Origin: an uncultured Granulosicoccaceae bacterium | GTDB lineage: Bacteria > Pseudomonadota > Gammaproteobacteria > Granulosicoccales > Granulosicoccaceae | Direction of reading: 5' to 3' | Length of the DNA: 64,000 nucleotides | Assembly: GCA_937927895.1 (NCBI GenBank) | Contig: CALGKA010000035.1 | Coordinates: 1-64,000, forward strand | Shown here: positions 33,891 through 55,710 of the stretch, one piece after another | Position numbering within the stretch: position 1 is the first letter of the stretch | Layout of the letters: each line of letters opens with the position of its first letter | Translations under genes and position numbers: made by a program | Notes under the pieces: model-generated | What the model saw: only the letters and a program-made list of their open reading frames with translations | Told to the model about the DNA's origin: nothing | Databases searched by the model: none

Positions 33891-34100
33891 GTAGAGTGCC
33901 AACTCACGAGTGCTGCTCTACCCGCGCTTTTTGCTGTTTTTTGAAATACTCTGCGTGAGGTCAAAGCGCCAGGGACGGCGCTTTGAGCGCGCTGCACATG
34001 GATGTGCATACCGCACGACCCTTTGCTGCTGGATTTCAAAAAATGGCGAAGCCCCCCCCCCTTCCCAGTTAAAAAAGGGCAATGAAGTAGCAAGAAAACG
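33891..34100 (+). repeat. Structured dispersed repeat, copy A
   Basis: Nested inverted repeats in fixed order. A 5' hairpin: GTAGAG 33891-33896 with CTCTAC 33916-33921. Then the constant ACCCGCGCTTT. An outer stem: TTTTTTGAAAT 33937-33947 with ATTTCAAAAAA 34033-34043 (11/11). Inside it, a 10-bp hairpin 33961-33970 / 33977-33986 with loop AGGGAC, and a 6-bp hairpin TGCACA 33993-33998 / TGTGCA 34003-34008 with loop TGGA. After the outer stem comes ATGGCGAAGCC and a C run. No plausible protein is encoded. Copies B (34459) and C (55521) share this plan. Function unknown: mobile element remnant or RNA gene are both possible. Confidence 0.85.
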
Positions 34101-34121
34101 TATTTAAAACATATTTCGTCA

Positions 34122-34280
34122 AGGGAAGCCCGCCAGCGTGAGCGAGGGTTTAAATAAGGTGGCGCTTCGGTATTCGCTAGCTTTAAAAATATAACTGAAA
34201 TGACTGCGTCTTTTTTTAGTAATCACATAAAAGTTAATTATCGGGGCATAAAATCCCTCGCTTACGCTTAAGGGCCTCCT
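34122..34280. repeat. Inverted-repeat-bounded element between repeat copies A and B
   Basis: Terminal inverted repeats of about 30 bp bound a ~160-bp segment: left arm 34122-34151, right arm 34251-34280, sharing the core AGCGTGAGCGAGGG (one mismatch to its partner) plus outer AGG and GCCC blocks. The interior is AT-rich and codes for nothing convincing. The layout suits a MITE-like element or a large hairpin. The remaining ~180 bp up to copy B show no structure. Confidence 0.65.
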
Positions 34281-34458
34281 AAAAGAAAAACATAACGAGC
34301 GCGCTTTAGACACAGCATGGTGACTTAGTAAGTGAATTAGTTGGATAAAGCATCAGTAATAGCTGTAAAAACGAGCGCGAAAAACATCCAAGACCCCGAA
34401 CCGTACTTACCGTCGCGAACCACAAACCCATCAATTGCCAATATCCCATATAGCTGAC

Positions 34459-34680
34459 GTAGAGTGCCGACACTCACGAAGTGATGCTCTACCCGCGCTT
34501 TTTGTTGTTTTTTGAAATCCTGCTGCGTGGGGTCAAAGCGTCAGGGACGGCGCTTTGAGCGCTGTGCACATGGTTGTGCATACCGCGCGACCCTTTGCTG
34601 CTGGATTTCAAAAAATGGCGCAGCCATCCCTTCCCAGTTAAAAAAACAACAAAGCAGCAAGAAGACCTTTGCTTCTGTTT
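34459..34680 (+). repeat. Structured dispersed repeat, copy B
   Basis: Same plan and orientation as copy A, ~570 bp downstream. 5' hairpin GTAGAG 34459-34464 / CTCTAC 34487-34492, with an inner CACT/AGTG pair. Outer stem 34508-34534 with 34589-34615, 22 of 27 positions paired. Inner hairpin 34533-34542 / 34549-34558 has a G-T wobble where copy A has G-C. Small hairpin TGCACA/TGTGCA 34565-34570 / 34575-34580 with loop TGGT. A 3' hairpin AGCAA/TTGCT (34656-34660 / 34669-34673) is visible here and in C. Further downstream (34715-34760) a ~15-bp motif containing CGCTCGTA is repeated twice. Open reading frames over this copy are artefacts. Confidence 0.85.
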
Positions 34681-34909
34681 GGGTCTGTCCAAATGAAGGC
34701 CGCCGGCAGGCATGCAGCGCTCGTAGCCGCCTAGCAAGGCATTGCAACGCTCGTAAGCCGTCCACAGGTCAAACACAAGCGCTCAAACCACTCGCCGTGC
34801 GCAGCACAATAAAGAGCACACCAAAAAACAAAGCCACCCCACACATCCCAAGCCACCATTCCTGTACAATAAAGACCCGTGCGCAACCACCGCGTACCGT
34901 GAGATTGAA

Positions 34910-37276
34910 ATGCCAACACCTCAAGTCTATCCACCAGCACCACGCGAGCTCTTTGCCTACCCACGATACTGGGCTGAGTGCTTTGGCGCAGCCCCATTTT
35001 TACCGATGTCACGCGCAGAGATGGACATACTCGGTTGGGATAGTTGCGACATCATCATTGTCACCGGTGATGCGTATGTAGATCACCCCAGTTTTGGCAT
35101 GGCTATCATCGGTCGCCTACTTGAAGCACAGGGCTTTCGAGTCGGCATTATTGCGCAACCTCAATGGGATAGCGCTGAGCCATTCACAGCACTTGGCAAA
35201 CCGAATCTGTTCTTTGGAGTGACGGCGGGCAACATGGATTCCATGATAAACCGCTACACCGCTGACAGAAAAATACGCAGCGACGATGCATACTCACCCA
35301 ATGACATCGGCGGTCAACGACCAGACCGTTGCTCATTGGTGTATTCACAACGTTGTCGCGAAGCTTATAAAGACTCACAAATAGTACTAGGTGGAATTGA
35401 AGCATCACTGCGTCGAATTGCACACTATGACTATTGGCAAGATAAAGTCAGGCGCTCTATCCTGGTTGACGCCAAAGCGGACATACTCCTCTACGGCAAC
35501 GCGGAACGCGCACTGGTTGAAATTGCACACCGAGTGGCCGCCGGTGAATCAGTAAAAGACATTACTGATGTTCGCGGCACCGCGTTTATGCGAAGCCAAT
35601 TACCTGAAGATTTAGAGATTATAGATTCCACCAGCATTGATGCAGTAGGTAAGGTAGACAAACATCTCAATCCATATGAATCCACTGACAGCAAATCTGG
35701 CAGCTCTAACAGTGCACCCAACAAGGAATCCCTAAGTGATAAAAACTCTACTGAAACAGTAGCTATCACTTTTAAGAAGAAGTCAGAGCTAACCAAAGAT
35801 CAACGCATTCGCTTAAACACCGAGCGCAGAAACAAAGCAGCCATTCGCCTGCCCACTTACGAAAAATTACGCGATGATCCCGTACTGTACGCACATGCTA
35901 ACCGGGTACTGCACCTTGAAACCAACCCAGGCAATGCACGTGCGCTAATTCAGCGCCATGGCAATAGAGACCTATGGATCAATACACCACCGATCCCTCT
36001 CAGTACAGAAGAGATGGACTACGTTTTTGACTTACCCTACGCTCGTGTACCACACCCAAGCTATGGCGATGCACGCATACCCGCGTATGAAATGATTCGT
36101 TTTTCAGTCAATATAATGCGCGGCTGTTTTGGCGGTTGTACTTTTTGTTCTATTACCGAACATGAAGGCCGAATTATTCAAAGCCGTTCAGAAGATTCTA
36201 TAATCCGTGAAATCGAATTAATGAAAGACGTACCTGGCTTTACGGGTGTTGTGTCTGATCTAGGCGGTCCCACCGCCAACATGTATAGACTCGCGTGTAA
36301 GTCTAAAACCATAGAGTCTGCGTGTCGCCTACCCTCATGCGTATACCCGGGCATTTGCCCGAATCTGGATACCGACCATTCATCATTGGTAAAGCTCTAC
36401 CGACGTGCAAGAGCGCTACCAGGCGTTAAGAAAATTCTTATTGGCTCAGGCCTTAGATATGACTTAGCGGTAGAGTCGCCGGAGTATGTTGAAGAACTGG
36501 TGACCCACCATGTGGGCGGCTATCTTAAAATAGCACCAGAACATACCGAGCGCGGTCCACTTGATAAAATGATGAAGCCTGGCATTGGCTCATATGAAAA
36601 ATTCAAACAAATGTTTGAAAAATACTCAAAGAAAGCCGGCAAGGAACAATATTTAATTCCATACTTTATCGCAGCCCACCCAGGCACCACCGATGAAGAC
36701 ATGATGAATCTTGCCGTTTGGTTAAAGCACAACGGATTCCGAGCAGATCAAGTACAAAATTTTTACCCATCACCTATGGCCACTGCCACTGCCATGTATC
36801 ACTCGGGTAAAAACCCGCTTGCCAAAGTAGGACGTGAAACAGAAAGCGTTCCTACTGCCAAAAAAGGCAAGCAGCGCCAACTACATAAAGCATTCTTGCG
36901 CTACCACGACCCAGACAACTGGCCAATGCTACGCGAAGCCCTAAAAAACATGGGGCGTGCTGATCTTATTGGCAATGGAAAAAAACACTTGATACCGCAC
37001 TGGCAACCAGAGCCCGGCAGCTATCGTGCAGCACGAAAAAAGAATCGTAACAAACAACCAGAGCCTGGCACGCTATTAAGTCAGCACACAGGCCTACCGC
37101 CACGGGCTGGTGTTAATACCAAAGGAAATTCAGCCTCAGGAAGCAGCAAAAGCAGCCGACCATACGCGCAAACCTCTGGCCGACCCAAAGCCGGAAGCGG
37201 CAGAGGCAGAGGCAAATCAACCGCCACGTCGCGTACGCAAAAAACCTATTCAGGAAACAAGCACACTGGCAGATAG
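34910..37276 (+). CDS. ygiQ: YgiQ-family radical SAM protein
   Basis: 788 residues. The N-terminal domain ([23 protein letters not shown]...[20 protein letters not shown]) and the radical SAM cluster CxxxCxxC at Cys406, Cys410, Cys413 ([18 protein letters not shown]) identify the YgiQ/UPF0313 family, [4Fe-4S]-SAM enzymes of unknown reaction. [20 protein letters not shown] is another family block. The C-terminal ~100 residues are basic, Gly/Ser/Arg-rich and probably disordered, possibly nucleic-acid binding. A Ser/Asn-rich insert at ~255-285 departs from the compact family core. ATG 34910 fits the family N-terminus. It stands alone after the repeat block. Confidence 0.95.
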
Positions 37277-37296
37277 TGGAATTAAAATACTCAATA

Positions 37297-37322
37297 TAAA
37301 AAAGGCGGGTAAACACCCGCCT
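37297..37322 (-). terminator. Rho-independent terminator of the secreted propeller gene
   Basis: Perfect 8-bp stem AGGCGGGT 37303-37310 with ACCCGCCT 37315-37322. On the minus strand it is followed by a run of T (37302-37297). It lies 30 bp after the stop of the gene at 37352; on the plus strand no T-run follows, so ygiQ may read through or use the hairpin weakly. Confidence 0.85.
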
Positions 37323-37351
37323 CATCTCTCTAGCCACAAACTATCAACCTA

Positions 37352-38932
37352 TCACTCAGTAACGATATCAATTTCCATTTGGTTCCAAGTGTAATTAACT
37401 GAGTGACTATAGCCTTGATCATTACGCATAGCGTCTGACCAGATCAAGGTCATTTTACGACCATCGTCACTGATCCACTTGGGTGAAAGCTTAGGCTGGT
37501 AGGTTAGATTGCGGCTGTTATCTGCAGTCCAGTAGTCGTTGTAGTAAAACTGCTTCCAAGGGCCATAAGGTGTATCGGAATGCCACAAACCTAAGCTACC
37601 GGTTTTTGTGTGCATCCACTTACTATAATAGTCACTGCTTGAGCCACTTAAGCCATTGCCCGCATAGGTTCCGCCATTAACCATAATGTACTTTTGTAAA
37701 CCTGCATTCCAAACCACCGACGGCAACCAGGAATACCATCCAAAATGCTCACCGGCAGCATTGCGGGAAGGCAGCGTTAAGTTGGGCTGACGTGCTTCGA
37801 TGTTAGAACTCCAACGCGCTGTATCGTTATCCCAACCAGTAAAGTACTGCCAAGCACTGCGCTGACCCACTTGATTTTCAGGCACACGCGCTAGTTGCAA
37901 TTGGTGGCTACTAGAACCTTCTGGCGAATAAATATAAACATAGCCATCAGTAGACGCCTGATGATCTTGCCCACTTTGCACAAACGACGCAAAGCTAAAT
38001 GGGTATGCAGTTTTACCTTTTCCGACCCTGCCGTTTTCATCTGAAAAGAACATTTCATCGCGATTAAGCAACTCACGGGCGTTATCCGAACGCCCTAAAT
38101 AGCGATCATTGTTTTCGCGATCAACCCGATACCAACTGTTACCCGCATCATATGAGCGCAGCATTTTCATGCCTCGAAAAGGCCCTTCAGACCATGCACC
38201 ATTTTGCGTTTTAGAAACCAGTGAATACAACACTCCATTTACAGACACAACACCATAAGCAAACCATCCGTCGCCATCGACATGAAACTCTGGATAGTTC
38301 TGAATTTCCGATTTAGAAAATCCGCTGGCATCGCCCCAAATTTTATACAGGCGGCTGTGGTATTTGAAATTACCCGAACCATTCCAATCACCATCGTCCA
38401 TTGCTGTAATTACGCTTCCATCTGCGGCCCACGTTTGACACCAGTTATCGCCCTTGCCTCCGACTCGACGAAGCGTTGATGAGTTAAACCTAACGCCAAC
38501 CGGGCGCTGACCTGTGGCAGACACTTGCACATTCGCACTGGTGCTAATAATTGTAGTGCTTGCATTACCCCCAACCAAACAACTGCGACCGTACTCATAC
38601 CCCCAACCATCACCATCAGGATCAACGGCAGCACTACTGCATTGTGGCGTTAGAGAAGATACTGCCGATTGCGCTTGCGGCTGAACCTGCACCCTACAAC
38701 TCAAACCATTCTCGTAGCCCCAACCATCACCATCCGGGTCTGAAGCACTTGAGCTACAACCAGGCAGAGCGCCCGTTGATGATGAAGAGCTTGCCATGGC
38801 GCACGACTGTCCGCGCTCCCAACCCCACCCATCACCGTCAATATCACTGTTCCAGTTTTGACACACTGGTGCAGCATCACACGCCGATGAGATCGCTAAA
38901 ACTAAAGTTATAAACAATGGACGAGCTAACAT
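37352..38932 (-). CDS. Secreted protein with three DGDGWG repeats and a beta-propeller-like domain
   Basis: 526 residues with a Sec signal (cleavage near CDA-APV). Residues ~22-120 hold three repeats of ~35-40 residues with the core D(I/P)DGDGWG(W/Y)E, each between two Cys (C...DGDGWGYENGLSC). Such cysteine-flanked modules occur in polysaccharide-degrading enzymes of marine bacteria and probably bind carbohydrate or calcium. The C-terminal ~380 residues are rich in Trp and repeated strand motifs (WMHTKTGSLGLWHSDTPYGPWKQ; MTLIWSDAMRNDQGYSHSVNY), a pattern like DUF4185 / five-bladed glycoside-hydrolase propellers. No catalytic residue can be named. A role in polysaccharide binding or cleavage is inferred. 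Confidence 0.8.
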   Translation of the reverse strand: MLARPLFITLVLAISSACDAAPVCQNWNSDIDGDGWGWERGQSCAMASSSSSTGALPGCSSSASDPDGDGWGYENGLSCRVQVQPQAQSAVSSLTPQCSSAAVDPDGDGWGYEYGRSCLVGGNASTTIISTSANVQVSATGQRPVGVRFNSSTLRRVGGKGDNWCQTWAADGSVITAMDDGDWNGSGNFKYHSRLYKIWGDASGFSKSEIQNYPEFHVDGDGWFAYGVVSVNGVLYSLVSKTQNGAWSEGPFRGMKMLRSYDAGNSWYRVDRENNDRYLGRSDNARELLNRDEMFFSDENGRVGKGKTAYPFSFASFVQSGQDHQASTDGYVYIYSPEGSSSHQLQLARVPENQVGQRSAWQYFTGWDNDTARWSSNIEARQPNLTLPSRNAAGEHFGWYSWLPSVVWNAGLQKYIMVNGGTYAGNGLSGSSSDYYSKWMHTKTGSLGLWHSDTPYGPWKQFYYNDYWTADNSRNLTYQPKLSPKWISDDGRKMTLIWSDAMRNDQGYSHSVNYTWNQMEIDIVTE

Positions 38933-39383
38933 GAAACCTCTTCACTTATAAACTCAAAATATGAAGACTCATAATGATTGAAAACCCCGACAAAAAACTG
39001 CATCGGACAGCAAAACAAATCAAAAAACGGATTACGATATTTTTACATTGCCAATAAGAGCCAAGCAATTCAACAATCTAGCTAGTACAACAAAAGCGCT
39101 AGTCAAAACGATCTATCTCCCCGGATTGATTACCCAAATCTAGCTACCGATAAAATGAAAAACGACAATAAACCAACTGATTAAAAAAGCACCAACCCAC
39201 TATTAACCCTTACTCCCAACTTACACCTGTCTCATTTTCGACACACATATAAAACCAAAATTGTTACAACCGGATGGCAATAAAACGAGACGAATTAGAC
39301 GGTTACAATCTCGTTTTACTCACCGCAGCGCGATCGTGCAGCGGTATGATTCGCTCAAATTCTCCAGTAGATATGGACTCCGC
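38933..39383. other. AT-rich divergent spacer, nothing recognised
   Basis: About 450 bp between the divergent secreted-protein gene and the low-complexity protein gene. It is AT-rich with many short A runs and must hold both promoters, but I see no hexamer pair good enough to call, no hairpin of note and no coding potential. A TTG-initiated extension of the plus-strand frame to 39261 is open but lacks any ribosome-binding site. Confidence 0.5.
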
Positions 39384-41648
39384 ATGCTCGATCTTTTTGT
39401 TGTGCCCACGCTAGTAGCTACTTTGGTATTGGTGGTTGGATTGATCGGGTGGTGGCTTGCAGTTGAATGGGCCTTTCGACCAAAGGAGTCGGAAAAACAC
39501 GTTGTCAACAACTCAAGTACTGCGAAGGTTAAAGCACCATTTCACGACCCAATAGATCACCCCAAGCGCAATGCTAACAAGCCAACTAGCTTGCCACCAA
39601 CCAGCTTGCCACCAACCAGCTTGCCAACCCGCAGCCGTGTCGAAGAACAAACTACTGCAGCTGCAGATTTAGGCCTGAAACGAACAGCTGAAAAAATTGC
39701 TGCACCCGCTGCCTCAGACCAAACCATCACTAACAAGCATCACACAGCGCAAAAGCAAAACCTTAACGGACAAACAGCACCGAGGCCAACTCGCTATACA
39801 GAAAAGCCAGCCCCGACCGGTTTCGTCGCTCATAACGCAGGCAGCAGCGATGACAGACAAGGCAGTAGTCAGAGCCGTGAAGCTCAAGCCAGTGCAAAGC
39901 ATCAATCACAAGCACTGAAGACACCAAAACCGACCAATCAAAAGCAGGCTAATTCCGATCGCTCAACCAGCGGTACTAATACAAACGTAAGTACTAGTGC
40001 GAACGCAGCGGTTGTCGCCACTCGAAAAGAAACAAGACCCGCTACACCTACAGTCACCCTCAGCCAGACACACACTCGGCCGACTGCGACCGCACGCATA
40101 CCAGAACTAGCAGCAACAGAGACAACAGACGATCACGCACCACAAAGACTGGAGCAAAACAAAGCCGCTGCAGTCACACAGAAACTTAGCACTGAAAAAG
40201 ACAATAATAAAAAACAACAAAAGCAGAAGTATCAAACTGCCGCGAAATCTAATCGTGCATCAATACGACACGAGGCATCACTGCAGATCACAGACCCGTC
40301 TATTCGACCTGCGACAGACACCAGCAAATCAAGCACCGAAAAACACGAAACAGCAAAGAAAGATGACTTTCTCCAAAAGCTCAGCAACCAACCAACCAAT
40401 AAAGTTGTGCAGGCAAACGCAGCAACGTCGCCTGAAACAAAAAAAGATGAAGCCCACAACACCCGGAGCGATAAGTTAAATAAAGCTTCGACCATCAACA
40501 CTGCAAAGCTTACCCCGGGCAAAAGCAGTACAAACCAAAGCGACGTTGCAACTGCCCTTACGGAAAAAAAACCGATAAGCCATGGCAATACCGCAACCAC
40601 CGCTGCGGATAAAGACTTTTCAAACCAGAGCAACCCTGTCAACGCACTTACAGACAAAGGCCCGATAAACCAAGGCAACACTGCAACCACTGCTACGGTC
40701 AAAAGCTCTACGAACCAGAGCAATACAGCCAACACACTTACGAACAATAACCCGACAAACCAAGGCAGCACTGCAACCACCGCTACGGACAAAAACTCTT
40801 CAAACCAGAGCAATACAGCCAACACACTTACGAACAATAACCCGACAAACCAAGGCAACACTACAACCACCGCTACGGACAAAAACTCTTCAAACCAGAG
40901 TAATACAGCCAACACACTTACGAACAATAATCTGACGAGCCAAGGCAACACTACAACCACCGCTACAGACAAAAGCTCTACGAACCAGAGCAATACAGCG
41001 CCTACCTCTGGGGACAAAAGCTCTACCAACCAGAGCAACGCTGCAACGACCTCAGCGAACCAAAACCCTATACGCCAGAGCAACACTGCCGCCGCCTCGA
41101 CAGATAACACACCTACAAACCAGAGCAACACAGCTCAAAATGCCGTACCGAACAGTGTAGAGAAAAATCCAACAAGCACCCCGACACAGCACAAAGGTGC
41201 TACCAATGTTCATGCACTCAGCGATGCAAGCCAACGTAAAAACATATCGCTGGTCAACACCAACCCGCTAGATCAAAACGCTGCTAACAAAACTCGCAAG
41301 CAATCTGCTATTGAGCTCGCAGTGGCCCGAAAGGAAGCCACAACACCGGACGCACGGCCACAATATCCCAAGCAACAACCAGACAACCAAACAAGCACCG
41401 ATAACCTGCACCGTGACCCCGCGATAGCCTCTGCAACAGAAGAACCAAGCCAGGCCGCAGACCCAGATCTGCGTGCCGAGCTGGAACTGAGCAAAAAGCG
41501 CATTGCAAGCTTGCAGTCAGCCTTAAACAACGCTCAGCAAAATCAGCAGACACCGTTACCTACCGATACACCTGCTAGCGCATCAAAAACACCTCCTCGT
41601 GCAACGCTACTGAGTAAGGTCAGAGTATTGGATAGCACCAAAGTCTAA
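39384..41648 (+). CDS. Membrane-anchored low-complexity repeat protein
   Basis: 754 residues from ATG 39384 (GGA about 8 nt upstream). One membrane segment at about residues 3-27 (LDLFVVPTLVATLVLVVGLIGWW) with a short N-terminus, then over 650 residues almost free of hydrophobic residues and dominated by Thr, Asn, Ser, Ala, Gln and Lys. Residues ~384-580 are a tandem array of a 30-residue unit, itself two 15-residue halves (NQSNTANTLTNNNPT / NQGNTATTATDKNSS). Near the C-terminus there is a short coiled coil (LRAELELSKKRIASLQSALNNAQQNQQ). No Cys apart from few. No family recognised. The layout, anchor plus long flexible linker plus coiled coil, suggests an envelope-spanning tether or spacer. 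Confidence 0.75.
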   Translation: MLDLFVVPTLVATLVLVVGLIGWWLAVEWAFRPKESEKHVVNNSSTAKVKAPFHDPIDHPKRNANKPTSLPPTSLPPTSLPTRSRVEEQTTAAADLGLKRTAEKIAAPAASDQTITNKHHTAQKQNLNGQTAPRPTRYTEKPAPTGFVAHNAGSSDDRQGSSQSREAQASAKHQSQALKTPKPTNQKQANSDRSTSGTNTNVSTSANAAVVATRKETRPATPTVTLSQTHTRPTATARIPELAATETTDDHAPQRLEQNKAAAVTQKLSTEKDNNKKQQKQKYQTAAKSNRASIRHEASLQITDPSIRPATDTSKSSTEKHETAKKDDFLQKLSNQPTNKVVQANAATSPETKKDEAHNTRSDKLNKASTINTAKLTPGKSSTNQSDVATALTEKKPISHGNTATTAADKDFSNQSNPVNALTDKGPINQGNTATTATVKSSTNQSNTANTLTNNNPTNQGSTATTATDKNSSNQSNTANTLTNNNPTNQGNTTTTATDKNSSNQSNTANTLTNNNLTSQGNTTTTATDKSSTNQSNTAPTSGDKSSTNQSNAATTSANQNPIRQSNTAAASTDNTPTNQSNTAQNAVPNSVEKNPTSTPTQHKGATNVHALSDASQRKNISLVNTNPLDQNAANKTRKQSAIELAVARKEATTPDARPQYPKQQPDNQTSTDNLHRDPAIASATEEPSQAADPDLRAELELSKKRIASLQSALNNAQQNQQTPLPTDTPASASKTPPRATLLSKVRVLDSTKV
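40533..41125 (+). repeat. 90-bp tandem array (45-bp half units) inside a coding gene
   Basis: The motif AACCAGAGCAA recurs with exact spacing: 40533 (variant), 40623, 40713, 40803, 40893, 40983, then at 45-bp steps 41028, 41073 and 41118. Units from 40713 to 40983 are nearly identical at the DNA level, the outer ones diverged, which indicates recent expansion in the middle. The period is a multiple of three, so copy-number change keeps the frame. Confidence 0.92.
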
Positions 41649-41732
41649 GCACCGTCGTTTAGCGAACGACAAAAAGGTCACGCAGTCTGCAACACGGGTT
41701 ACACTTGGCATACGCTCTAATACCGTATTGCC

Positions 41733-42665
41733 ATGCCAACAATCGTTTCGATCAAAAACCTGTGCAAGACTTACAGCTCAGGTCATCAGGCACTTAAAAG
41801 TATCAACCTCGATATTGAAGAAGGCGAGATCATCGCCCTTCTCGGGCCTAATGGTGCCGGTAAAACTACCCTTATCTCTGCTATATGTGGAATCATAAAA
41901 ACCACCTCAGGCAGCGTGACCGTTAACGGGTACGACACCGTAAAGCAGTATCGAAAAAGCCGCGGCCTGATAGGCCTTGTGCCACAAGAACTCACACTAG
42001 GTGCGTTTGAAAAAGTACAAAGTACACTGGCGTTTAGCCGCGGCCTGTTCGGCAAAAAACCAAATCCCGAACACATAGAACAATTACTTAAAGATCTATC
42101 CCTGTGGGACAAACGCGATTCAGTATTAATGATGCTGTCAGGCGGCATGAAAAGGCGAGTGCTTATCGGCAAGGCTTTAGCACATGAGCCGCGTGTATTG
42201 TTTCTAGATGAACCAACTGCAGGTGTTGATGTAGAGCTACGCAAAGATATGTGGAAGCTTGTCAGTAAGCTCCGAGACTCAGGCGTTACCATTATCTTAA
42301 CCACCCATTACATCGAAGAGGCAGAAGAGATTGCTGACCGCGTGGGCGTGATCAACAACGGTGAACTACTGTTGGTTGAAGATAAAACTGACTTAATGAA
42401 TAAGCTTGGCAGCAAGCAACTCAACATTGAACTTCGAGCACCGGTTACAGAAATTCCGCAAAGCCTTAGTGACTACAACCTTGAACTGTCAGAAAATGGC
42501 ACACACTTGACTTACACCTATGATGTTAAAAGCAATCGCACGGGTATCACGTCACTGCTGCAAGCCTTAAACAACGCTGGCTTGCAACTCAAAGACTTAC
42601 ACACATCGCAAAGCTCACTGGAAGAGATTTTCGTTAACTTGGTCAACAACGACCAAGCACAATAA
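41733..42665 (+). CDS. yadG: ABC-2 type transporter ATP-binding protein (YadG-like)
   Basis: 310 residues. Walker A GPNGAGKT (38-45), Q-loop LVPQELTL, signature LSGGMKRR, Walker B with D-loop [12 protein letters not shown]-loop [10 protein letters not shown]. The whole length and the [11 protein letters not shown]..[21 protein letters not shown] block match E. coli YadG closely, as does the C-terminal [10 protein letters not shown]. Energises the permease encoded 12 bp downstream. YadGH exporters have no firmly known substrate. Starts a tight operon yadG-yadH-NUDIX. Confidence 0.95.
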
Positions 42666-42677
42666 AAGACTAAAGAT

Positions 42678-43457
42678 ATGAATTGGAATGCCATTAAGGT
42701 AATTTATATAAGCGAAATGATGCGCACCTGGAACACGCTTGCACAAAGCATCGCATCGCCAGTCATTTCTACAGTGCTTTATTTTGTCGTATTCGGCTCC
42801 GCGATTGGGTCTCGTATAGAATCTGTTGGCGGTGTGAATGGTGAGGGAGGAGTCTCCTATGGTGCATTTATAGTTCCAGGCTTAATGATGCTTTCGCTAC
42901 TGACACAGAGCATTTCTAATGCGTCGTTTGGCATCTACTTTCCCAAATTTACAGGCACAATCTACGAGCTCTTATCAGCACCCATCTCTTTCTTTGAAGT
43001 CGTCTTAGGCTATGTGGGAGCGGCGGCCACTAAATCTTTTATTATTGGCATTATTATTCTGGGCACTGCTGGCTCTTTTGTTGATCTTCAAATAGCACAC
43101 CCCTTCTGGATGATGGCGTTTTTTATTCTTACCTGTGTCACTTTTTCATTGTTCGGATTTATCATAGGCATATGGGCCGACAGTTTTGAAAAACTACAAT
43201 TAATTCCTTTGTTAGTTATTACACCTTTGGTTTTTCTAGGTGGCAGTTTCTATACCATCGATATGTTGCCAAACATATGGCAGAAAATCTCTTTGTTTAA
43301 CCCGGTTCTGTATTTAATAAGCGGCTTTCGGTGGAGCTTTTTTGAAGTCTCCGATGTTGGCCACCATTTAAGTATGGCGATTGTTTTACTGTTTTTATTC
43401 ATTTGCATGGGCATTATCTGGTGGATGTTTAAAACTGGCTACAAACTGCGCCAGTAA
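42678..43457 (+). CDS. yadH: ABC-2 type transporter permease (YadH-like)
   Basis: 259 residues with six hydrophobic segments. [57 protein letters not shown] and the late [40 protein letters not shown] are the ABC-2 permease blocks of the YadH group; length equals E. coli YadH (256). Works as a dimer with the YadG-like ATPase. Only 3 bp separate it from the NUDIX gene. Confidence 0.95.
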
Positions 43458-43460
43458 TTC

Positions 43461-46152: not shown

Positions 46153-46191
46153 CCACCATCGCTTAAGACCATTCATTAGGAGGCTACTATT

Positions 46192-47772: not shown

Positions 47773-47862
47773 AGCTGTCACCTTCATTAAAGCTGCGTTG
47801 TAAACAATTGACTTCGCAAGAATACCAACGCACTCAATATTACCTATGAATATAAACCAACA

Positions 47863-49053
47863 ATGAAAAACAATAGCCCTGGTGTTTCCTCGTTTACTGA
47901 TCGCATAGGTGGCAGCGGTGCCGCGGCGTGGGATATTCATATCATCGCAAGTGAAGCACAAGAGCGCGGTGAAGACGTCATACTTTTAAGTATCGGTGAT
48001 CCAGATTTCTCAACACCTAAACCCGTGGTTGACTGCGCTATTAACGCGCTTAACAATGGCGATACCCACTATGCAGCGACCGCTGGCCGTACAGAGTTGC
48101 GTCAGGCTATCGCCGATGACTTCTCTAAACAATCCGGCCTTGCCACCGAAGTAGACAATGTGTTTGTGTTTGCGGGCACGCAGAACGCACTTTTTTCAGC
48201 AAGTCTCGTAGTGCTTGAACACGGTGATGAAGTGATTGCACTAGAGCCCATGTACGTGAGCTACGAAGCAACCTTGCAACTAGGTGGCGCGAAGCTTGTG
48301 AAAGTCGCACAACCGGCTGACAACGGCTTCCGACTTGATATCAAACTAGTCGAACAAGCCATCACAAAAGCAACCCGCGCCATCGTAATCACCACACCGA
48401 ACAACCCGACCGGTGTGGCGATGACACCCAGTGAGCTCGAATCAATTGCAACACTCGCAATTAAGCATAATCTTTGGGTGATTTCCGATGAAATATATAC
48501 CGATATTATTTTCGACGGTGAGCATCATTCGATTGCTGCACTGCCCAATATGGCTGAACGCACCATAACCATTAACGGACTATCTAAGTCACATGCCATG
48601 ACTGGCTGGAGAGTCGGGTGGACAATTGCACCTAAACAATTAGCACAGCACTTTGACAATTTAACGCTGTGCATGCTCTACGGTATTCCAGGCTTTGTTC
48701 AAGAGGCAGCACTACTAGCCCTTACCGATGAACGAGAAGCAAGCATTGTTATGCGAGACACCTATAAAAAGCGCCGCGACCTAGTCTGTAGTGAGCTGGC
48801 TAAGGCCAAAAAACTACCGCTATTAAAACCGGACGCTGCCATGTATGTAATGGCTGATATAAGAGCCTATGGAATGCCTTGTCATGACTTCTGCCACGCA
48901 CTCTACAACGCGACGGGTGTATCGGTACTCGATGCCGGAGCCTTTGGCTCAAGTGCGGACGGCTGGATTCGTATTTCATTTACTCTAGGTGAAGACACAC
49001 TAAAAACAGGCTGCGAAAGAATCGTAGCATTTTTAGCGAGTCTACCAGACTAG
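47863..49053 (+). CDS. Class-I aminotransferase, AruH (arginine:pyruvate transaminase)-like
   Basis: 396 residues, fold-type I PLP enzyme. PLP lysine is Lys242 in GLSKSHAMTGWRVGW; Asp209 and Tyr212 (SDEIYTD) contact the cofactor; NNPTG (180-184) is present. The N-terminal block SSFTDRIGGSGAAAWDIH...SIGDPDFSTP and LTLCMLYGIPGFVQEAALLAL closely follow Pseudomonas aeruginosa AruH as I recall it, which transfers the amino group of L-arginine to pyruvate. In Pseudomonas the next enzyme, AruI, is a TPP-dependent 2-ketoarginine decarboxylase; here too a TPP enzyme gene lies 90 bp upstream, though of a different subfamily. Arginine as substrate is an inference. Confidence 0.88.
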   Translation: MKNNSPGVSSFTDRIGGSGAAAWDIHIIASEAQERGEDVILLSIGDPDFSTPKPVVDCAINALNNGDTHYAATAGRTELRQAIADDFSKQSGLATEVDNVFVFAGTQNALFSASLVVLEHGDEVIALEPMYVSYEATLQLGGAKLVKVAQPADNGFRLDIKLVEQAITKATRAIVITTPNNPTGVAMTPSELESIATLAIKHNLWVISDEIYTDIIFDGEHHSIAALPNMAERTITINGLSKSHAMTGWRVGWTIAPKQLAQHFDNLTLCMLYGIPGFVQEAALLALTDEREASIVMRDTYKKRRDLVCSELAKAKKLPLLKPDAAMYVMADIRAYGMPCHDFCHALYNATGVSVLDAGAFGSSADGWIRISFTLGEDTLKTGCERIVAFLASLPD

Positions 49054-50201
49054 TAAATCTGCTCGCGAAGTTGCATTGAGCGTTCCATGCCATCTGTTAA
49101 TCCATAGCGCGAATAAACGGCCGTGGCTTTTTGCAAAGACAGCTTAGCATTATGCATACTGGTATTTGACCGATACAGTTCAACCATAACATCAGGTTGA
49201 CGACGATACTGCGCACGCTTTGACGCATTCGCCAAAGATGCCTCAGCCTGCTGGCGAAAGCGCCATGCTTGTAACGCATCACCACGTGCAAGCATTTGAT
49301 TGTATAGCTGACCATAGTCACGTGCAGCGCCGATCGCGGCAACACTTTTTTCATACTCGCTATAGTGGGACTGCAATTGCTGTTCGATTTCTTCCGCGTC
49401 AATGTTAGTTAATCCATTATCTATAAGCACACCTAGTAATCGCTTAGCATCTTGTAGATTACCAGAGGCCGCGTGAAGCTTTATTGCCTCTATGCCTGAC
49501 TGCTGAGCCTGTTCGATATTATGCTCACTGGCGTACCCGCGATAAAGCGTCTCGTGGGCACTGGCGGCTGCACCGTATCGATTCAAACTAAGGTTTGTTT
49601 TTACCACTTGCTGCAAGGCTTGTTCAGATTCATAGAATCGACCTTGGCTTATATTCCACCGAGATAGCAACAATTGATCATAAGAGTCAGAAGCTTGTCT
49701 GGCGCGCTTGCGATCATACAAATGTAGACGCCCCATCTGTATGTGAACACCAGCTAGTTCTACATCAAGGCCTAGCTCTCCATAGAGCTCTAGCGCTTCA
49801 GACAAATAGACTCCAGCCATGCCAAGATCTCCCTGCAAAAGAGCTAGCTCTCCCAACTCACTTATAGCCAGCGCTAAACGTTCGTTGTCGGCAGCGGCAA
49901 CCGCTTGCAATGCACGTTCAAGCAATAGTTCTTTCGCGCGGCGATAATCACCAGAGCCTGTTAGCGCCTCAATCTCTGATGAAAGCACTGGGCGAGTAAC
50001 GGAAATAACATTGTCTAACTGTTGAGCGAGAGGCACGGTAGCAAATGGCGAAGCCGGGCTTTGGCGCTCTACACTTTGCTGCAGCTTATTCTGACTGCCT
50101 GTATTCACATAACTATGTATAAGACTAATCAACCCGACGCTTACTATTACCGAAAACACTGATTCTTTTTTTCGGTATAGCCAACTACGTTTTCGACTCA
50201 T
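49050..50201 (-). CDS. Membrane-anchored TPR-like protein
   Basis: 383 residues with a single N-terminal membrane segment (about 14-30) after a basic start (MSRKRSWLYRKK), so most of it faces the periplasm. Residues ~75-370 are helical, Ala/Leu/Tyr-rich, with TPR-type pairs (RRAKELLLERALQAVAAADNERLALAISELGELALLQGDLGMAGVYLSEALELYGELGL; EQAQQSGIEAIKLHAASGNLQDAKRLLGVLI). Protein-protein scaffold is the likely role; partner unknown. Its stop shares the bases CTAG with the stop of the convergent aminotransferase gene. Confidence 0.75.
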   Translation of the reverse strand: MSRKRSWLYRKKESVFSVIVSVGLISLIHSYVNTGSQNKLQQSVERQSPASPFATVPLAQQLDNVISVTRPVLSSEIEALTGSGDYRRAKELLLERALQAVAAADNERLALAISELGELALLQGDLGMAGVYLSEALELYGELGLDVELAGVHIQMGRLHLYDRKRARQASDSYDQLLLSRWNISQGRFYESEQALQQVVKTNLSLNRYGAAASAHETLYRGYASEHNIEQAQQSGIEAIKLHAASGNLQDAKRLLGVLIDNGLTNIDAEEIEQQLQSHYSEYEKSVAAIGAARDYGQLYNQMLARGDALQAWRFRQQAEASLANASKRAQYRRQPDVMVELYRSNTSMHNAKLSLQKATAVYSRYGLTDGMERSMQLREQIY

Positions 50202-50334
50202 ATCTATTCTCCAATTGAAGAACGATTCTTTCGAATGTTAGAAACGACCTATTGAAAACTGACCTGCAGAGTACAGATCCAATCCAATGTTAAAACCATA
50301 CTACAAAGTCTCCTACATAACCAACCAGAAGCCA

Positions 50335-51231
50335 CTACATTGCTAGCGAGAGCTCTATAGCCTCTGCAATTGCATCAGGTTTTTGCGCAGGCGCCATTAT
50401 ATGTACCCCGGCAAGCCCGGGGATCTCACGATACTGCTGAATTAGTTCAGCGCAAATCTTTCGACCTTCCGCTTTTGCATTTGCCGCCTGCTCTAATCGC
50501 TTAATAATTGCGTCTGGAATCGTCACACCATACAGATTGTTATTCATCCAAATGGCAGACTTAGCAGATACAATCGGACCAATACCCAACAAAACACCAA
50601 TCTTATCGGTAACACCTTCCTCATTGAGCCTTGCGATATATCGCTTTGCTACCTCGGGTTCAAAACAAAATTGCGTCTGCGCAAATTGCGCTCCACAATC
50701 TATTTTCGCGTTTAAGCCTTCAGGCTTCCAATCAGCTGGTGGGTCAATTGGCATATCGGCAGCGCCTACAAAAAATGGCGGTGGATCTACAACCGTTTTG
50801 CCCGAAGGCAATAGCCCCTCTTCTCGCAATGAGGTAGCGAGCTTTATCAATTCACGCGAATCAAGATCAAAAACCGCTTTTGCATCCGGCTGATCACCCT
50901 TTGCAGGATCGTCCCCCATCAGCATAAGCAAGTTATAACAGCCTTGTGCTGCGGCGCCTAATAAGTCTGCGGTTATGGCAATTCTATTTCTGTCCCGACA
51001 GGTGATTTGTAATACTGGCTCATGACCATTCGCAGCGAGTAAGGCGGCGGCAGCAAAGCTACTCATGGTGGTAGATGCTCCGGCGCCGTCTGTAACGTTA
51101 ATAGCATCTACTTTACCGCGCAGATATTCAGCCTCTGCAAGAAGCATAGTTTTAGTGGCAGCAATGGGCGGTACAATCTCTGCCGTCATTGCAAACTGGC
51201 CGGTTTTTAGTTTTTCGCTTAACGCAGTCAT
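50335..51231 (-). CDS. Methylenetetrahydrofolate reductase family protein
   Basis: 298 residues, a (beta/alpha)8 barrel. Family blocks: TAEIVPP near the N-terminus, DAINVTDGAGASTTMSS, GHEPVLQITCRDRNRIAITADLLGAAAQGCYNLLMLMGDDP and AQFAQTQFCFEPEVAKRYIARL. It is the FAD enzyme that reduces 5,10-methylene-THF to 5-methyl-THF, or a close relative working in C1 catabolism. The GHEPVLQITCRDRNR wording is more like the catabolic MetF-like branch found with THF-dependent demethylases than like E. coli MetF; no such partner is adjacent. Confidence 0.85.
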   Translation of the reverse strand: MTALSEKLKTGQFAMTAEIVPPIAATKTMLLAEAEYLRGKVDAINVTDGAGASTTMSSFAAAALLAANGHEPVLQITCRDRNRIAITADLLGAAAQGCYNLLMLMGDDPAKGDQPDAKAVFDLDSRELIKLATSLREEGLLPSGKTVVDPPPFFVGAADMPIDPPADWKPEGLNAKIDCGAQFAQTQFCFEPEVAKRYIARLNEEGVTDKIGVLLGIGPIVSAKSAIWMNNNLYGVTIPDAIIKRLEQAANAKAEGRKICAELIQQYREIPGLAGVHIMAPAQKPDAIAEAIELSLAM

Positions 51232-51361
51232 CTTTGATCAACACCATAAAGTCAGCCTAAGAGCTTACAAGCGTATCGTGTTTTGCTATTGTGAACATAC
51301 GACAAGTCAATATCTAAAGCCGCAACAACACCCCACCATGGTCAACGCAATAGAGTGAATC

Positions 51362-52516
51362 ATGAACTATCGCAAGAGAAGCATTTACCAGTCCGAACAT
51401 GAATCACTACGCGATGGCATTCGACGATTCCTGCAAGAACACGCTGTTCCAAAGCTAGCTGAATGGGAAACACAAGGGTTTGCAGATCGCGCTCTTTGGC
51501 AAGGCCTGGGGAACCTGGGTGCGATGTCAGCTATGGTCTCGTCAGAGTACAGTGGCAGCGCTAGCGATATGCTTACCGCCGCCATAATCTATGAAGAGAT
51601 CGGGCGCTGTGGTGTTGCTGGAGTAAGCGGCATTGCAGTGCACGATATTGTCGCCTATTACCTTCAACATCATGCAAGCGATACACTAAAACAGGAATGG
51701 CTACCAAAAGCTGTCAGTGGTGAAACTCTATTCGCGGTCGCGATGACTGAACCCGGAGCGGGCTCTGATCTCAGAGGCATTAAAACACGTGCCGAGTTAA
51801 ACGGTGATCACTACATATTAAACGGTTCAAAAATATTTATTACTAATGGTTTAGCTGCTGATGCCATAGCGGTAGTATGCCGCACTGACCTCAACGCCGA
51901 ACGCGGTGGTCTTAGCTTGTTATTGGTTGACACCAATAGCGCTGGCTTCAAACGCGGTCGTAAACTGGAAAAGCTTGGTCAAAAATCTCAAGACATAGCA
52001 GAGCTATTTTTTGAAGATGTAAAAGTTCCAGCCGGCAATCTTATTGGCGACGAAAGCCGCGGGCTAAACATACTCATGAGTGAACTACCATTTGAGCGAT
52101 TAGTAATAGGGTTAATTGCTCTTGGGGCTGCAAAGTGTGCTTACGAACATACTATTGAATATGTAGAAAACCGCAAAGCCTTTGGTAAAAACATTGCTGA
52201 ATTCCAAAACACTAAATACAAATTGGCAGAAGTGAGAACAGAAATTGAAGTAGGTGAGGCTTTTGTCGATCGCTGTGTTGAAGCCCATAGCAATAAATCA
52301 CTCTCAACAGAACAAGCCTCTATGTGCAAGCTTTGGCTCACCGAGATGCAAGACAGAGTCATGGACACCTGCTTGCAACTACATGGCGGCTACGGCTACA
52401 TGTGGGAATACCCTATAGCCAAGCTATACGCTGACTCACGGGTACAAAGAATTTATGGCGGTACGTCTGAAATAATGAAAGAGCTTATTAGCCGCACACC
52501 AGCATTAGACAGCTAG
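51362..52516 (+). CDS. Acyl-CoA dehydrogenase, LCAD-type
   Basis: 384 residues. FAD/substrate motifs: FAVAMTEPGAGSDLRGI (124-140), YILNGSKIFITNG (151-163), LQLHGGYGYMWEYPI (339-352). The usual catalytic Glu position near the C-terminus (YEGTS in MCAD) is Gly here (IYGGTSEIMKELI), exactly as in long-chain acyl-CoA dehydrogenase, where the base comes from the earlier helix; the matching residue is Glu262 (CAYEHTIEYV). Catalyses the first step of fatty-acid beta-oxidation, passing electrons to ETF. With FadL and VolA-like lipase in the same window this fits fatty-acid use, although they are not clustered. Followed 36 bp later by the argE-like gene. Confidence 0.93.
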   Translation: MNYRKRSIYQSEHESLRDGIRRFLQEHAVPKLAEWETQGFADRALWQGLGNLGAMSAMVSSEYSGSASDMLTAAIIYEEIGRCGVAGVSGIAVHDIVAYYLQHHASDTLKQEWLPKAVSGETLFAVAMTEPGAGSDLRGIKTRAELNGDHYILNGSKIFITNGLAADAIAVVCRTDLNAERGGLSLLLVDTNSAGFKRGRKLEKLGQKSQDIAELFFEDVKVPAGNLIGDESRGLNILMSELPFERLVIGLIALGAAKCAYEHTIEYVENRKAFGKNIAEFQNTKYKLAEVRTEIEVGEAFVDRCVEAHSNKSLSTEQASMCKLWLTEMQDRVMDTCLQLHGGYGYMWEYPIAKLYADSRVQRIYGGTSEIMKELISRTPALDS

Positions 52517-52552
52517 CACTATTTAAAATAGCAACAGATTATATAAATACAC

Positions 52553-53752
52553 ATGAAACGAAACGACATTATAAAGACTTCTATCGCCATCTTAAATGAA
52601 CTGGTTGGCTTTGATACTACCTCTCGGGAATCTAATCTTGCGATTATCGAACACATAAGGTCTTATCTCGACAACCTGGGTATCGAGTCAAGATTAACGC
52701 ACGACTCAACAGGCACAAAAGCCAACCTATGGGCAACAATAGGCCCCAATTCAATTGGCGGCGTGGTGTTATCGGGCCACTTGGATGTTGTACCAGTCGA
52801 CGGCCAACAATGGTCTCACGATCCATTCGACATGCGGCAGTCTGATGGAAAATTGTTCGGCCGTGGTGTAGTCGACATGAAAGGGTTTATTGCCGTTTGC
52901 CTTGCCATGGCACCACAGATGTTAAAACAAGACCTACAACTCCCTATTCACTTTGCCTTTAGTTATGACGAAGAAATCGGCTGCGTTGGGGTTCATGGCC
53001 TACTGAAAGATGTAGTAGACAACCTACCGCTACCAAGAGCGGTTATTGTTGGTGAGCCCACCTCCATGAAAATAATTGGCGGCCACAAAGGCTCACGAAG
53101 TTTTAGAACCACAGTCAAAGGCGTACCCGCACATTCCAGCGACCCACGCTTGGGAGTTAACTCTATAATGGCGGCAGCGCGTATTGTTACATTCCTTGAA
53201 TCGCTTCAATCCGAACTAAGCGATAACGCAGACCCCAACAGCCCATTTGACCCGCCTTACACAACTATAGATTTGGGCATTATAAACGGTGGCACCGCCA
53301 ACAATATAATTCCAGAATTCACCGCTATCGAGTGGGGCTACAGACTAGTACCACAAGACAATGCAGATGATATACAGAAACGTGTGATCGACTTTATAGA
53401 TCAGGAAGTAACACCACCGCTGAAAGCACAATCAATCAATGCAAGCGTCTCTACTGAAATCACCAACAATATGATTGCGCTTATTCCGGACGATCAATCC
53501 CCTGCAGAACAACTCATAAGGCATATCACAGGTCTAAATAATTCAGGTGTGGTGAGCTTTGGCACCGAGGCCGGTGCATTTCAACACTCCGGCATACCGG
53601 CAGTGGTGTTTGGCCCAGGTAGCATTAAACAAGCCCACCAGCCGGATGAATTTATAGAAATTACCCAACTCGAAGAGTGCATTGATTTTGTTGGCAAGCT
53701 ACTAAACTGGGCACAACAAGAAAACCCTGACGCAATTTTTGGTTCAGACTAG
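52553..53752 (+). CDS. argE: Acetylornithine deacetylase-like (ArgE) M20 metallohydrolase
   Basis: 399 residues, M20 family. Zinc ligands and catalysis: SGHLDVVPVDG (His76, Asp78), RGVVDMKG (Asp108), DEEIGCVG (Glu140/141), GEPTSM, and the late His in IKQAHQPDEFIEI. The dimerisation lid starts at HKGSRSFRTTVKGVPAHSS, as in ArgE. Family members remove the acetyl group of N-acetylornithine in arginine synthesis. Here it follows an acyl-CoA dehydrogenase gene and is not with other arg genes, so a related catabolic N-acyl-amino-acid hydrolase is possible. Confidence 0.88.
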   Translation: MKRNDIIKTSIAILNELVGFDTTSRESNLAIIEHIRSYLDNLGIESRLTHDSTGTKANLWATIGPNSIGGVVLSGHLDVVPVDGQQWSHDPFDMRQSDGKLFGRGVVDMKGFIAVCLAMAPQMLKQDLQLPIHFAFSYDEEIGCVGVHGLLKDVVDNLPLPRAVIVGEPTSMKIIGGHKGSRSFRTTVKGVPAHSSDPRLGVNSIMAAARIVTFLESLQSELSDNADPNSPFDPPYTTIDLGIINGGTANNIIPEFTAIEWGYRLVPQDNADDIQKRVIDFIDQEVTPPLKAQSINASVSTEITNNMIALIPDDQSPAEQLIRHITGLNNSGVVSFGTEAGAFQHSGIPAVVFGPGSIKQAHQPDEFIEITQLEECIDFVGKLLNWAQQENPDAIFGSD

Positions 53753-53777
53753 TTCTTGACTGTAATCATTGAGCTAT

Positions 53778-54743
53778 TTAGACAAACTGATAGAGCGCTG
53801 CGAAAATACAAAAACAAGCGACCGCCACATTGAAATAACCCAACCGCGCAAACTTATTCGCCAGTACATCAGGGTGGCGATCTGAAATTAGCATCGGCAA
53901 ACCATTACCAGGTTTTCGAATGACATTTTCAATCCGCTCAACACCTTTTTGCTCATAAAGATCTCGTGCAAGTGCCTTCGCACGCTTAACAGCACTCTGC
54001 CACTCTTCAGGATCTAACTCGCCATTTTGATCAACATCAAACTCTTCAAGAAGCCATGTTTGATCTTTTTTCCAGGTGGTTAATAAGCTGCCTACTTCCG
54101 CATTTTCATTGTACGACGTAATAGCGCAACCATCTGCACGCAGCTCACCGATCACATACATTTTAGCGCCATGAGCAATATACTTTGACGAAAAGTACTT
54201 GCCAAATTCAGCCCATGATCGCTGACTGCTAGAGATTACCTTTGCCCCTTTAGGATTGACGATGCAAACACCCGTTTCATCGCGAATCACAAAAGGAATT
54301 TCACTCGCCCCGATCTGTAAAGGGAATAAACCACCCCTACCCGCAATATTATTTTTGCGCAGTCCAATACCAAGCTTAATTATAAAGTAGCGATGCCATA
54401 CACACGGAGGCCCTGACAAAAAACCCTGCGTTTCACGATTGCCGTAAAACTCGCAACTACCCTGCAGCTCAACAAACCCCTGCGCTGCACTCACCACTTT
54501 TGAGCGCGGAGTATCAATCATATAAAGGCGTAGTGCCTTCGCACTCAAAGCCGCCCAAATGGCGAGCGCTGCCGCGAGAATGAAACCACACGCCTTAACT
54601 ATAGGATTAGATAGATCACCAAATACAACATAACCCACTACCCCAAGTGTTATAAAATCTATCAGATAGGGCGATACAAAACCGCTTGCCGAACCAATGG
54701 AATCGTTCGGTATTGAACGGATTTTGTCAACAGTTACAGTCAT
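53778..54743 (-). CDS. GIDE-domain membrane protein with an EF-hand
   Basis: 321 residues. Two hydrophobic segments near the N-terminus (about 27-42 and 50-69) and one at the C-terminus (305-320) bracket a GIDE-type (MULAN-like) domain, seen as VELQGSCEFYGNRETQGFLSGPPCVWHRYFI and WLLEEF. A perfect 12-residue EF-hand loop, DVDQNGELDPEE (residues 236-247; Asp at 1, 3, Asn at 5, Glu 7, Asp 9, Glu 12), follows at once. GIDE proteins often pair with LemA, and lemA is 19 bp upstream on the same strand, so they probably act together at the membrane, with calcium as a possible signal. Confidence 0.85.
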   Translation of the reverse strand: MTVTVDKIRSIPNDSIGSASGFVSPYLIDFITLGVVGYVVFGDLSNPIVKACGFILAAALAIWAALSAKALRLYMIDTPRSKVVSAAQGFVELQGSCEFYGNRETQGFLSGPPCVWHRYFIIKLGIGLRKNNIAGRGGLFPLQIGASEIPFVIRDETGVCIVNPKGAKVISSSQRSWAEFGKYFSSKYIAHGAKMYVIGELRADGCAITSYNENAEVGSLLTTWKKDQTWLLEEFDVDQNGELDPEEWQSAVKRAKALARDLYEQKGVERIENVIRKPGNGLPMLISDRHPDVLANKFARLGYFNVAVACFCIFAALYQFV

Positions 54744-54762
54744 CGTAATACCCGATTAACGA

Positions 54763-55338
54763 CTAAGCCGCAAAGAGATGCTCTATATCTACATCTTTAA
54801 GATCTTCTTCATTAACTTCAAAAAGTTGCGCTTGAGTAAAGTTGAACTTACTAGCCACTATATTAGTCGGAAATTCTTCTACAACGATATTATTGATATT
54901 AACCGAATCATTGTAGTACTCGCGACGATCTGCAATCGCATTTTCAAGTGAGCTAATACGTGTTTGTAACCGCATAAAAGACTCATTGCTTTTAAGCTCC
55001 GGATAATTCTCAGTCAATGCAAACAACCGACCAAGCGTATTAGACATCAGAGACTCAGCAACTCCTAGCTCAGCCATATCACCCGATTGCCGAGCATTAG
55101 AAACCTGTGATCGCGCCAGAGTAACTTTTTCAAGTGTCTCTTGCTCATACTTCATGTACTCGCGGCAAGTAGTCACAAGCTTAGGCAATTCATCATGCCG
55201 TTGCTTCAGCAGAACATCAATATTGCTCCAGGCAGCCTTAACATTGTGCTTCAATCGAACCAACCGATTGAACATTGTAATCACATAACCAACAAGCGCG
55301 ACAATCGCCACAAGCAGCACAACAGAAAAGATTCCCAT
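54763..55338 (-). CDS. lemA: LemA family protein
   Basis: 191 residues from ATG 55338 (GGGAG about 8 nt upstream); an in-frame extension to 55440 is not LemA-like. One N-terminal membrane helix (about 2-22), then the LemA helical bundle: MFNRLVRLKHNVKAAWSNIDVLLKQRHDELPKLV, LTENYPELKSNESFMRLQTRISSLENAIADRREYYND, VNINNIVVEEFPTNIVA. These blocks are nearly invariant in the family. Function is uncertain; the N-out topology places the bundle in the cytoplasm or periplasm depending on the protein. Forms an operon with the GIDE protein gene. Confidence 0.95.
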   Translation of the reverse strand: MGIFSVVLLVAIVALVGYVITMFNRLVRLKHNVKAAWSNIDVLLKQRHDELPKLVTTCREYMKYEQETLEKVTLARSQVSNARQSGDMAELGVAESLMSNTLGRLFALTENYPELKSNESFMRLQTRISSLENAIADRREYYNDSVNINNIVVEEFPTNIVASKFNFTQAQLFEVNEEDLKDVDIEHLFAA

Positions 55339-55520
55339 AAGACCAGCTCCCCGTATTATTTTTATTTCGTCACGATAGCGGCAACTCTCAAAAATTCTTA
55401 AAAAACCCACCAACTGGACACTACCAACGAATACCCACACTCTAATACTGCCAACCGTCTCACAAGAATCCCCCCACCCACTTTTTTGAGCTTTTTTCTT
55501 TTTTTGCTTTTGCTGTTGCT

Positions 55521-55710
55521 TTACCCGCGCTTTTATCAGTTTTTTATTTCATCAAGGAGACAGGTCTTGTCGCTAAAAGATGGTCGGCAGGACGCCACGT
55601 TAGCGAAGTTGGCACATGGATGTGCCGTCTGAGCGGCCTGTTGGAGTGATAAAATAAAAAATGCCGCAGGCACCCGAAGGGCTGAACAGTTGCAAGAAGA
55701 CTTTTTGCTT
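55521..55710 (+). repeat. Structured dispersed repeat, copy C (diverged)
   Basis: Shares ACCCGCGCTTTT with copies A and B, and the same order of hairpins, but different stem bases. Outer stem: 55540-55554 with 55647-55661, 14 of 15 paired, plus GACAGG/CCTGT (55559-55564 with 55637-55641). Inner stem CGCTAA 55571-55576 / TTAGCG 55600-55605. The small hairpin is GGCACA-TGGA-TGTGCC (55611-55626): the closing T-A of copy A has become G-C, a compensatory change, while the loop TGGA is kept. It ends ATGCCGCAGG (ATGGCGAAG in A). A GCAAGAAGAC...TTTTTGC hairpin lies just after, as in B. Poly-pyrimidine DNA (55480-55520) precedes it. Confidence 0.75.

Follow-up and report, generated by a model that had tools for sequence, protein, structure and literature searches.

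Three spacers of the 64,000-nucleotide stretch analysed here (the window; contig CALGKA010000035.1 of an uncultured Granulosicoccaceae bacterium) contain copies A, B and C of a repeat, and raise the question of whether it is an RNA gene family or a non-autonomous mobile element, and whether it belongs to a named family. On sequence grounds, the repeats are a divergent and strongly amplified lineage of TwoAYGGAY RNA (Rfam RF01731). With moderate confidence they are read here as dispersed RNA elements which, if transcribed, would bind and titrate CsrA.

All three copies lie on the + strand, contain ACCCGCGCTTT and have ATG(G/C)CG at the right edge. The outer stem is TTTTTTGAAAT/ATTTCAAAAAA in A and B and TTTTTTATTT/AAAATAAAAAA in C, the small hairpin is TGCACA/TGTGCA in A and B and GGCACA/TGTGCC in C, and copy B has a G-C to G-T change, seen as GCGTC facing GGCGC. 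An earlier sequence-only reading had described this shared plan of three same-strand copies, the stem bases that differ between A/B and C with pairing kept, and the change in B, and all three points are borne out by the sequence. The middle of the outer stem has mismatches, three of them T-T in copy B and more in copy A.

For the structure, 105 profile matches were reduced to 95 with a sufficiently full core, to 77 after dereplication at 97%, and to 55 by removal of copies outside 105 to 117 bases and of five named truncated copies; the length filter also took out the variant with a 34-base insert and window copy C, while seven others of C's class were kept. In this alignment the strand that carries GGA in its loops (the GGA strand) forms a long outer stem opening into a three-way junction with two hairpins, whose caps are for the most part CANGGAYG. 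RNAalifold gave 31 pairs, with two-sided changes in 20. Refinement led to a structure of 42 pairs in which 91.3% of cells are paired and 27 pairs show two-sided changes, and none of 500 shuffles was equally high on all five measures; cells with two-sided changes numbered 245, against 84 in shuffles and a maximum of 62 in slid versions. On a FastTree tree, both sides of a pair changed on one branch in 49 events, 46 of which remained paired, compared with a mean of 8.9 and a maximum of 19 under one null model and 11.7 and 21 under a second (300 runs each). The observation of a dispersed structured repeat is confirmed. Selection on structure, as first proposed, is supported for the GGA strand by the shuffle, tree-event and strand-bias tests. 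The statistical covariation called for by the sequence-only reading came out divided, strong in the tree-event test and weak in an R-scape-like per-pair test, which supported one of the 42 pairs at E < 0.05.

The strand bias is seen in single changes away from Watson-Crick pairs, 54 of which led to G-U and 23 to A-C (p 0.0005 with the two loop-closing pairs excluded). From a cruciform a bias of this kind would not be expected, which suggests that selection acts on the GGA strand, in the form either of RNA or of single-stranded DNA. The same counts bear on template switching within a palindrome (quasi-palindrome correction), by which paired changes would arise without selection on RNA. Many pairs do change together on one branch, and in genomes G338 (seven copies read) and G307 (nine) the core is nearly constant, with outer arms that are specific to each copy yet largely complementary to the edges; in the G338 loci L162-L168 the complementarity of the arms reaches the border (e.g. 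CAAG..CTTG, GCCC..GGGC). Arm variation of this kind could come from selection or from template switching, and selection is favoured because of the strand bias, which template switching does not lead one to expect. Nearly fixed loops and covariation in the short inner stems also speak against template switching, which is thus very improbable as the general source of the paired changes.

The name of the family follows from Rfam. The RF01731 gathering cut-off of 43 bits was exceeded by seven of 17 hand-chosen loci of the genus, three of them in the same genome as the window (L026, 60.4 bits; L023, 50.2; L032, 47.7) and four elsewhere in the genus (L013, L074, L017 and L018). Among the matches listed for this whole genome, two of six lay above the cut-off, and 20 distant loci gave six matches above it, spread over four loci. 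The window as a whole has no Rfam match at curated cut-offs: copy A reached 36.4 bits against RF01731 over 33919-34060, copy B had no RF01731 match up to E 10, and the top match of copy C was RsmV at 16 bits (cut-off 100), with one lower match of the same clan not listed. Clan CL00106 contains both TwoAYGGAY and RsmV. The sequence-only reading knew of no named family with this plan and had set a match in Rfam as its own test; because such matches occur above the cut-off in this genome, albeit with the window copies below it, an unnamed new RNA family is ruled out. What stands of the earlier interpretation is the structured, dispersed family with compensatory changes. That RsmV is itself a TwoAYGGAY element is not supported, the covariance model R1 built here having no match in the RsmV locus L256 up to E 10, and RsmV (RF04320) gave no match in this genome at E 0.01.

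A 2010 paper lists TwoAYGGAY among probable RNAs, from human gut, gamma-Proteobacteria and Clostridiales (PMC2864571, in its Table 1), and the relevant passage of PMC4333381 still gives it as of unknown function in 2014, with CsrA binding proposed. Like it, the repeats have two GGA-loop hairpins within a long outer stem. Most copies show both hairpins and the GGA, but the second loop position is often G, which gives ANGGAY in place of the A-Y-GGA-Y of the family. They differ in that loop 1 is often AGGGAC instead of AYGGAY, that many copies of the genus have a GGA/GGA internal loop (two tandem-GAs in a stem of TwoAYGGAY being described in 2014 in the same passage of PMC4333381), and in a downstream pseudoknot module, dozens of copies, and window copies under the cut-off. 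Judged by title, none of the papers listed from the open-licence literature deals with amplification of TwoAYGGAY.

The loops point towards CsrA. CANGGAYG occurs twice per core at 23 of 40 places in this genome, in 35 of 55 sequences of the genus (a set overlapping the former) and in 28 of 34 matches from other families; the N position varies and neighbouring positions are nearly fixed. On the antisense strand it is absent from all three sets of cores, and the looser ANGGA is found antisense in seven, four and one core(s), respectively. The repeats have CANGGAYG hairpins, and an expected sequestering of CsrA/RsmA, in common with RsmV and the other CsrB/Rsm sponge RNAs, RsmV also being in the same Rfam clan. 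CsrB and the Rsm sponges are small RNA (sRNA) genes present in few copies. The motif itself is the RsmA/RsmF site named for RsmV, a sequesterer of both proteins, in the part of PMC9308961 that treats it. The consensus for CsrA from systematic evolution of ligands by exponential enrichment (SELEX) is RUACARGGAUGU, with ACA and GGA given as invariant in the corresponding part of PMC7652899; an exact 12-base match was present in six of the 34 matches from other families and in none of the sequences from this genome or the genus. Extra ANGGA hairpins within 400 bases downstream numbered one in 34 copies of this genome and 11 in 43 of the genus; as these are few and several come from neighbouring cores, no extra downstream sites are claimed.

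Two csrA genes are present in this genome, and presence of the family tracks csrA more widely. In a phylum sample, all 19 RF01731 carriers (E 0.001) had csrA, compared with 158 of 249 genomes overall (p 1e-4); among its listed members of the class, carriers made up 18 of 53 genomes with csrA and none of 14 without (p 0.007). In a class sample, csrA was found in 46 of 47 carriers of R1 or RF01731 matches and in 267 of 322 others (p 0.003), and the sole carrier lacking it, G135, is 67% complete. Carrier counts are lower bounds, since strict and capped filters may have missed some.

The search of the genome and its relatives with a covariance model, suggested at the outset, did yield further copies. 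A profile search found 42 places in this genome and the model added six, giving at least 48, some of them partial. Copy A as a DNA query, with 40 of 150 candidates fully scored, gave at least 58 matches, which puts the repeat far above chance; 16 of them cover only a short piece (about 25 bases) resembling a repetitive extragenic palindrome (REP). A DNA search of 57 genomes matched 10, all from one genus. R1 had matches in 13 of 14 genomes of the genus, in 20 of 48 of the family at E 0.01 and in 31 of 369 of the class at E 1e-4; all these counts include the genome of the window. The genus search gave 74 matches, a figure that may include antisense duplicates of one and the same place, as pairs of this kind are listed for this genome.

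Many copies are followed by a second structured module. It is a T-rich/A-rich hairpin with a loop that complements the bases just 5' of the hairpin, in versions such as AAGAC/GTCTT, AAACAC/GTGTTT, ACAGCG/CGCTGT and GTGTC/GACAC. With eight unbroken pairs required, the hairpin was present in 58 of 86 copies examined, 46 of which had a complement of at least four bases. Over 29 distinct loops the matched complement averaged 4.66 bases and mismatched ones 3.15, and the matched average was reached in none of 5000 permutations; a control with shuffled loops gave a weak result, its 200 runs averaging 31.6 with a maximum of 43 against the 46 observed. Permutation among sequences makes covariation of this predicted pseudoknot clear. 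Copies A and C have no recognisable module 2. The hairpin also adjoins TwoAYGGAY in the distant loci L126, L128, L133, L134, L138 and L250, in L134 without a four-base complement. A model of the module, R2, matched 10 of 229 class genomes, and in 12 R2 loci examined TwoAYGGAY adjoins only in those of G000, G196 and G188; either the module can occur independently of the family or chance matches are also among those of R2. Separately, genome G179 has eight module-2-like matches, the two loci read there, L246 and L255, being without detected TwoAYGGAY.

The surroundings of the copies are the source of the chief doubt about a CsrA-binding RNA. Genes were simply predicted around 40 places with wider flanks, and both neighbours were resolved in 32: 12 convergent, 19 same-direction and one divergent, compared with 9, 28 and 10 among 47 gene pairs of the window. 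In spacers of at least 250 bases at these loci the counts, in the same order, were 12, 17 and 1 with the element and 5, 10 and 11 without. Divergent spacers are avoided (p 0.02); the convergent excess (p 0.12) and strand (p 0.65) are not significant. Of the 19 copies in same-direction pairs, 8 have the GGA strand in the sense of the genes and 11 have it antisense to both, and within 250 bases to the left and right of 40 copies sigma-70-like sites, the only promoter type covered, are no commoner than in shuffles. The repeats are in this unlike CsrB and the Rsm sponges, as no promoter of their own was found. The lack of a strand preference and of a promoter is better explained by a selfish palindromic repeat, in which the hairpins of one strand would be a transposase signal and the fixed loops a recognition site, copies persisting where they do least harm.

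The number of places in one genome, the adjoining REP-like repeats and the inverted, outward-facing pairs a few hundred bases apart (nine in loci of the genus, more in distant families) would also suit such a repeat, and the same tail-repeat-tail bias is described for Pseudomonas fluorescens repeats in PMC2718517. Pair arrangement is not fixed, since the pair in L124 faces inward and the copies in L072 form a tandem row. The repeats share with REPs, bacterial interspersed mosaic elements (BIMEs) and P. fluorescens repeats such as R178 that they are dispersed, palindromic and rare in divergent spacers (PMC2718517, which gives R178 as 101 bp with internal inverted repeats and 9 to 28 copies per genome); unlike these they are longer and branched, with GGA loops nearly fixed on one strand. 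Identity of R178 with TwoAYGGAY would be a guess. Fixed ends with terminal inverted repeats, as in miniature inverted-repeat transposable elements (MITEs), were absent from 40 copies: similarity extends right of the core start for 250 bases in 36, 300 in 27 and 400 in 12, and to the left for 175 bases in 25 and 375 in 18, ending raggedly without a sharp border. A common antisense reading frame in the left flank (e.g. FVSVGTLRRLFGILAIDGF) was rejected, the frames being unequal in length and broken in many copies (no search against protein families was made). The ragged ends, loops that fit the CsrA site, the csrA link, and the lack of a linked transposase (none was searched for) leave a selfish repeat somewhat unlikely, though it is the main rival.

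The convergent share, 12 of the 32 places, and the low-energy folds of the three window copies, computed without a shuffled control, would also suit a 3'-end structure, the stem ending or protecting transcripts chiefly of convergent genes. The alignment shows no U-run directly after the stem, and the fixed CANGGAYG loops and the csrA link would be left unexplained, so that this role is improbable.

Further points weigh against CsrA binding by a conserved RNA fold. Besides the weak per-pair covariation, 72 single changes on the tree broke pairs other than to G-U or A-C. CANGGAYG occurs just once at 15 of the 40 places and not at all at two, copy B has lost one GGA, and the model that found the 34 distant matches already contains the loops. 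In lowest-energy folds of single copies, hairpin 2 is missing from A and the expected hairpin 1 from C, while both form in B. The fold differs from that of RsmV. The csrA tests treat genomes as independent, the phylum and class samples share genomes, seven of the 14 class members lacking csrA come from one family, and carriers include matches below the curated cut-off (14 of 19 lie above it, and 16 of 24 for RF01731 in the class). On balance, the choice posed at the outset leans to a CsrA-binding RNA that also spread; CsrA binding and selfish spread can both be true.

The features of the window are collected in Table 1.

Table 1. Features of the repeat copies and of the DNA between them in the window
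Feature	Position	Strand	Basis
Copy A left flank: small hairpin GTAGAGTG..CACG..GTG plus ACCCGCGCTTT, common to many copies	33891..33935	+	42 copies of this genome aligned
Copy A core: outer stem, three-way junction, hairpin 1 (loop AGGGAC), hairpin 2 (loop ATGGAT)	33936..34048	+	R1, 92.1 bits
REP-like palindrome GGAAGCCCGCCAGCGTGAGCGAGGG, between copies A and B	34122..34152	+	16 short matches in this genome
Inverted partner of the REP-like palindrome	34253..34282	-	Sequence
Copy B left flank, features as in copy A left flank	34458..34506	+	Alignment of copies of this genome
Copy B core, loop 2 = TGGT (not TGGA)	34507..34620	+	R1, 111 bits; sequence
Copy B module 2, imperfect: AGAC, then hairpin CTTCTGTTTGG/CCAAATGAAG with GTCT in loop	34660..34698	+	By eye; short of eight unbroken pairs
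Copy C core, divergent class with GGCAGGACGCC and GGCACATGGATGTGCC hairpins	55539..55666	+	R1, 64.6 bits

The REP-like palindrome beside the elements has about 25 bases with varying but complementary arms, and at C63:22757-23132 of this genome it stands four times near one copy at spacings of 107 to 123 bases. The insert variant, seen in L024 (1232-1359), L031 (877-1004), L042 (1068-1195) and others, has 34 additional columns following hairpin 2 (around CCCATAGTTGACAATAATGGG), which may form a further hairpin. Arrays of small hairpins, noted by eye in tails of copies of this genome (e.g. GCCGCCGGCAGGGC, GCCGTCCGCAGGAC), lie downstream of 645-758 on the minus strand of L038, about 28 bases apart, and downstream of 745 in L028. 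At 40516-41145 the window has 45-base tandem repeats within a long reading frame of the + strand.

If the CsrA-binding RNA is real, the GGA strand would be transcribed, either because transcription of a neighbouring gene reads through into it or because of an unseen promoter, and the two hairpins of a transcribed copy could clamp one CsrA/RsmA dimer. Dozens of copies might jointly form a distributed sponge or, at the ends of transcripts, provide local landing pads for CsrA, and the element would in addition spread through the genome. The family itself and the proposal of CsrA binding are not new, the latter standing in the TwoAYGGAY passage of PMC4333381; new here are the strand-asymmetric evolution, the double CANGGAYG, the csrA link, the covarying downstream pseudoknot module and the amplification. 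Independent support for the CsrA hypothesis of TwoAYGGAY comes from its co-occurrence with csrA, from the strand asymmetry and from the CANGGAYG loops, and genomes with dozens of copies offer a natural testing ground for it. Only tentatively may it be proposed that a mobile RNA element has made the genome a distributed CsrA sponge setting the free CsrA pool, built of two-hairpin clamps, many with the downstream pseudoknot module, and able to be carried only by lineages that bear csrA. If this holds, the buffering of a global regulator would fall to a dispersed repeat instead of to one or two sRNA genes.

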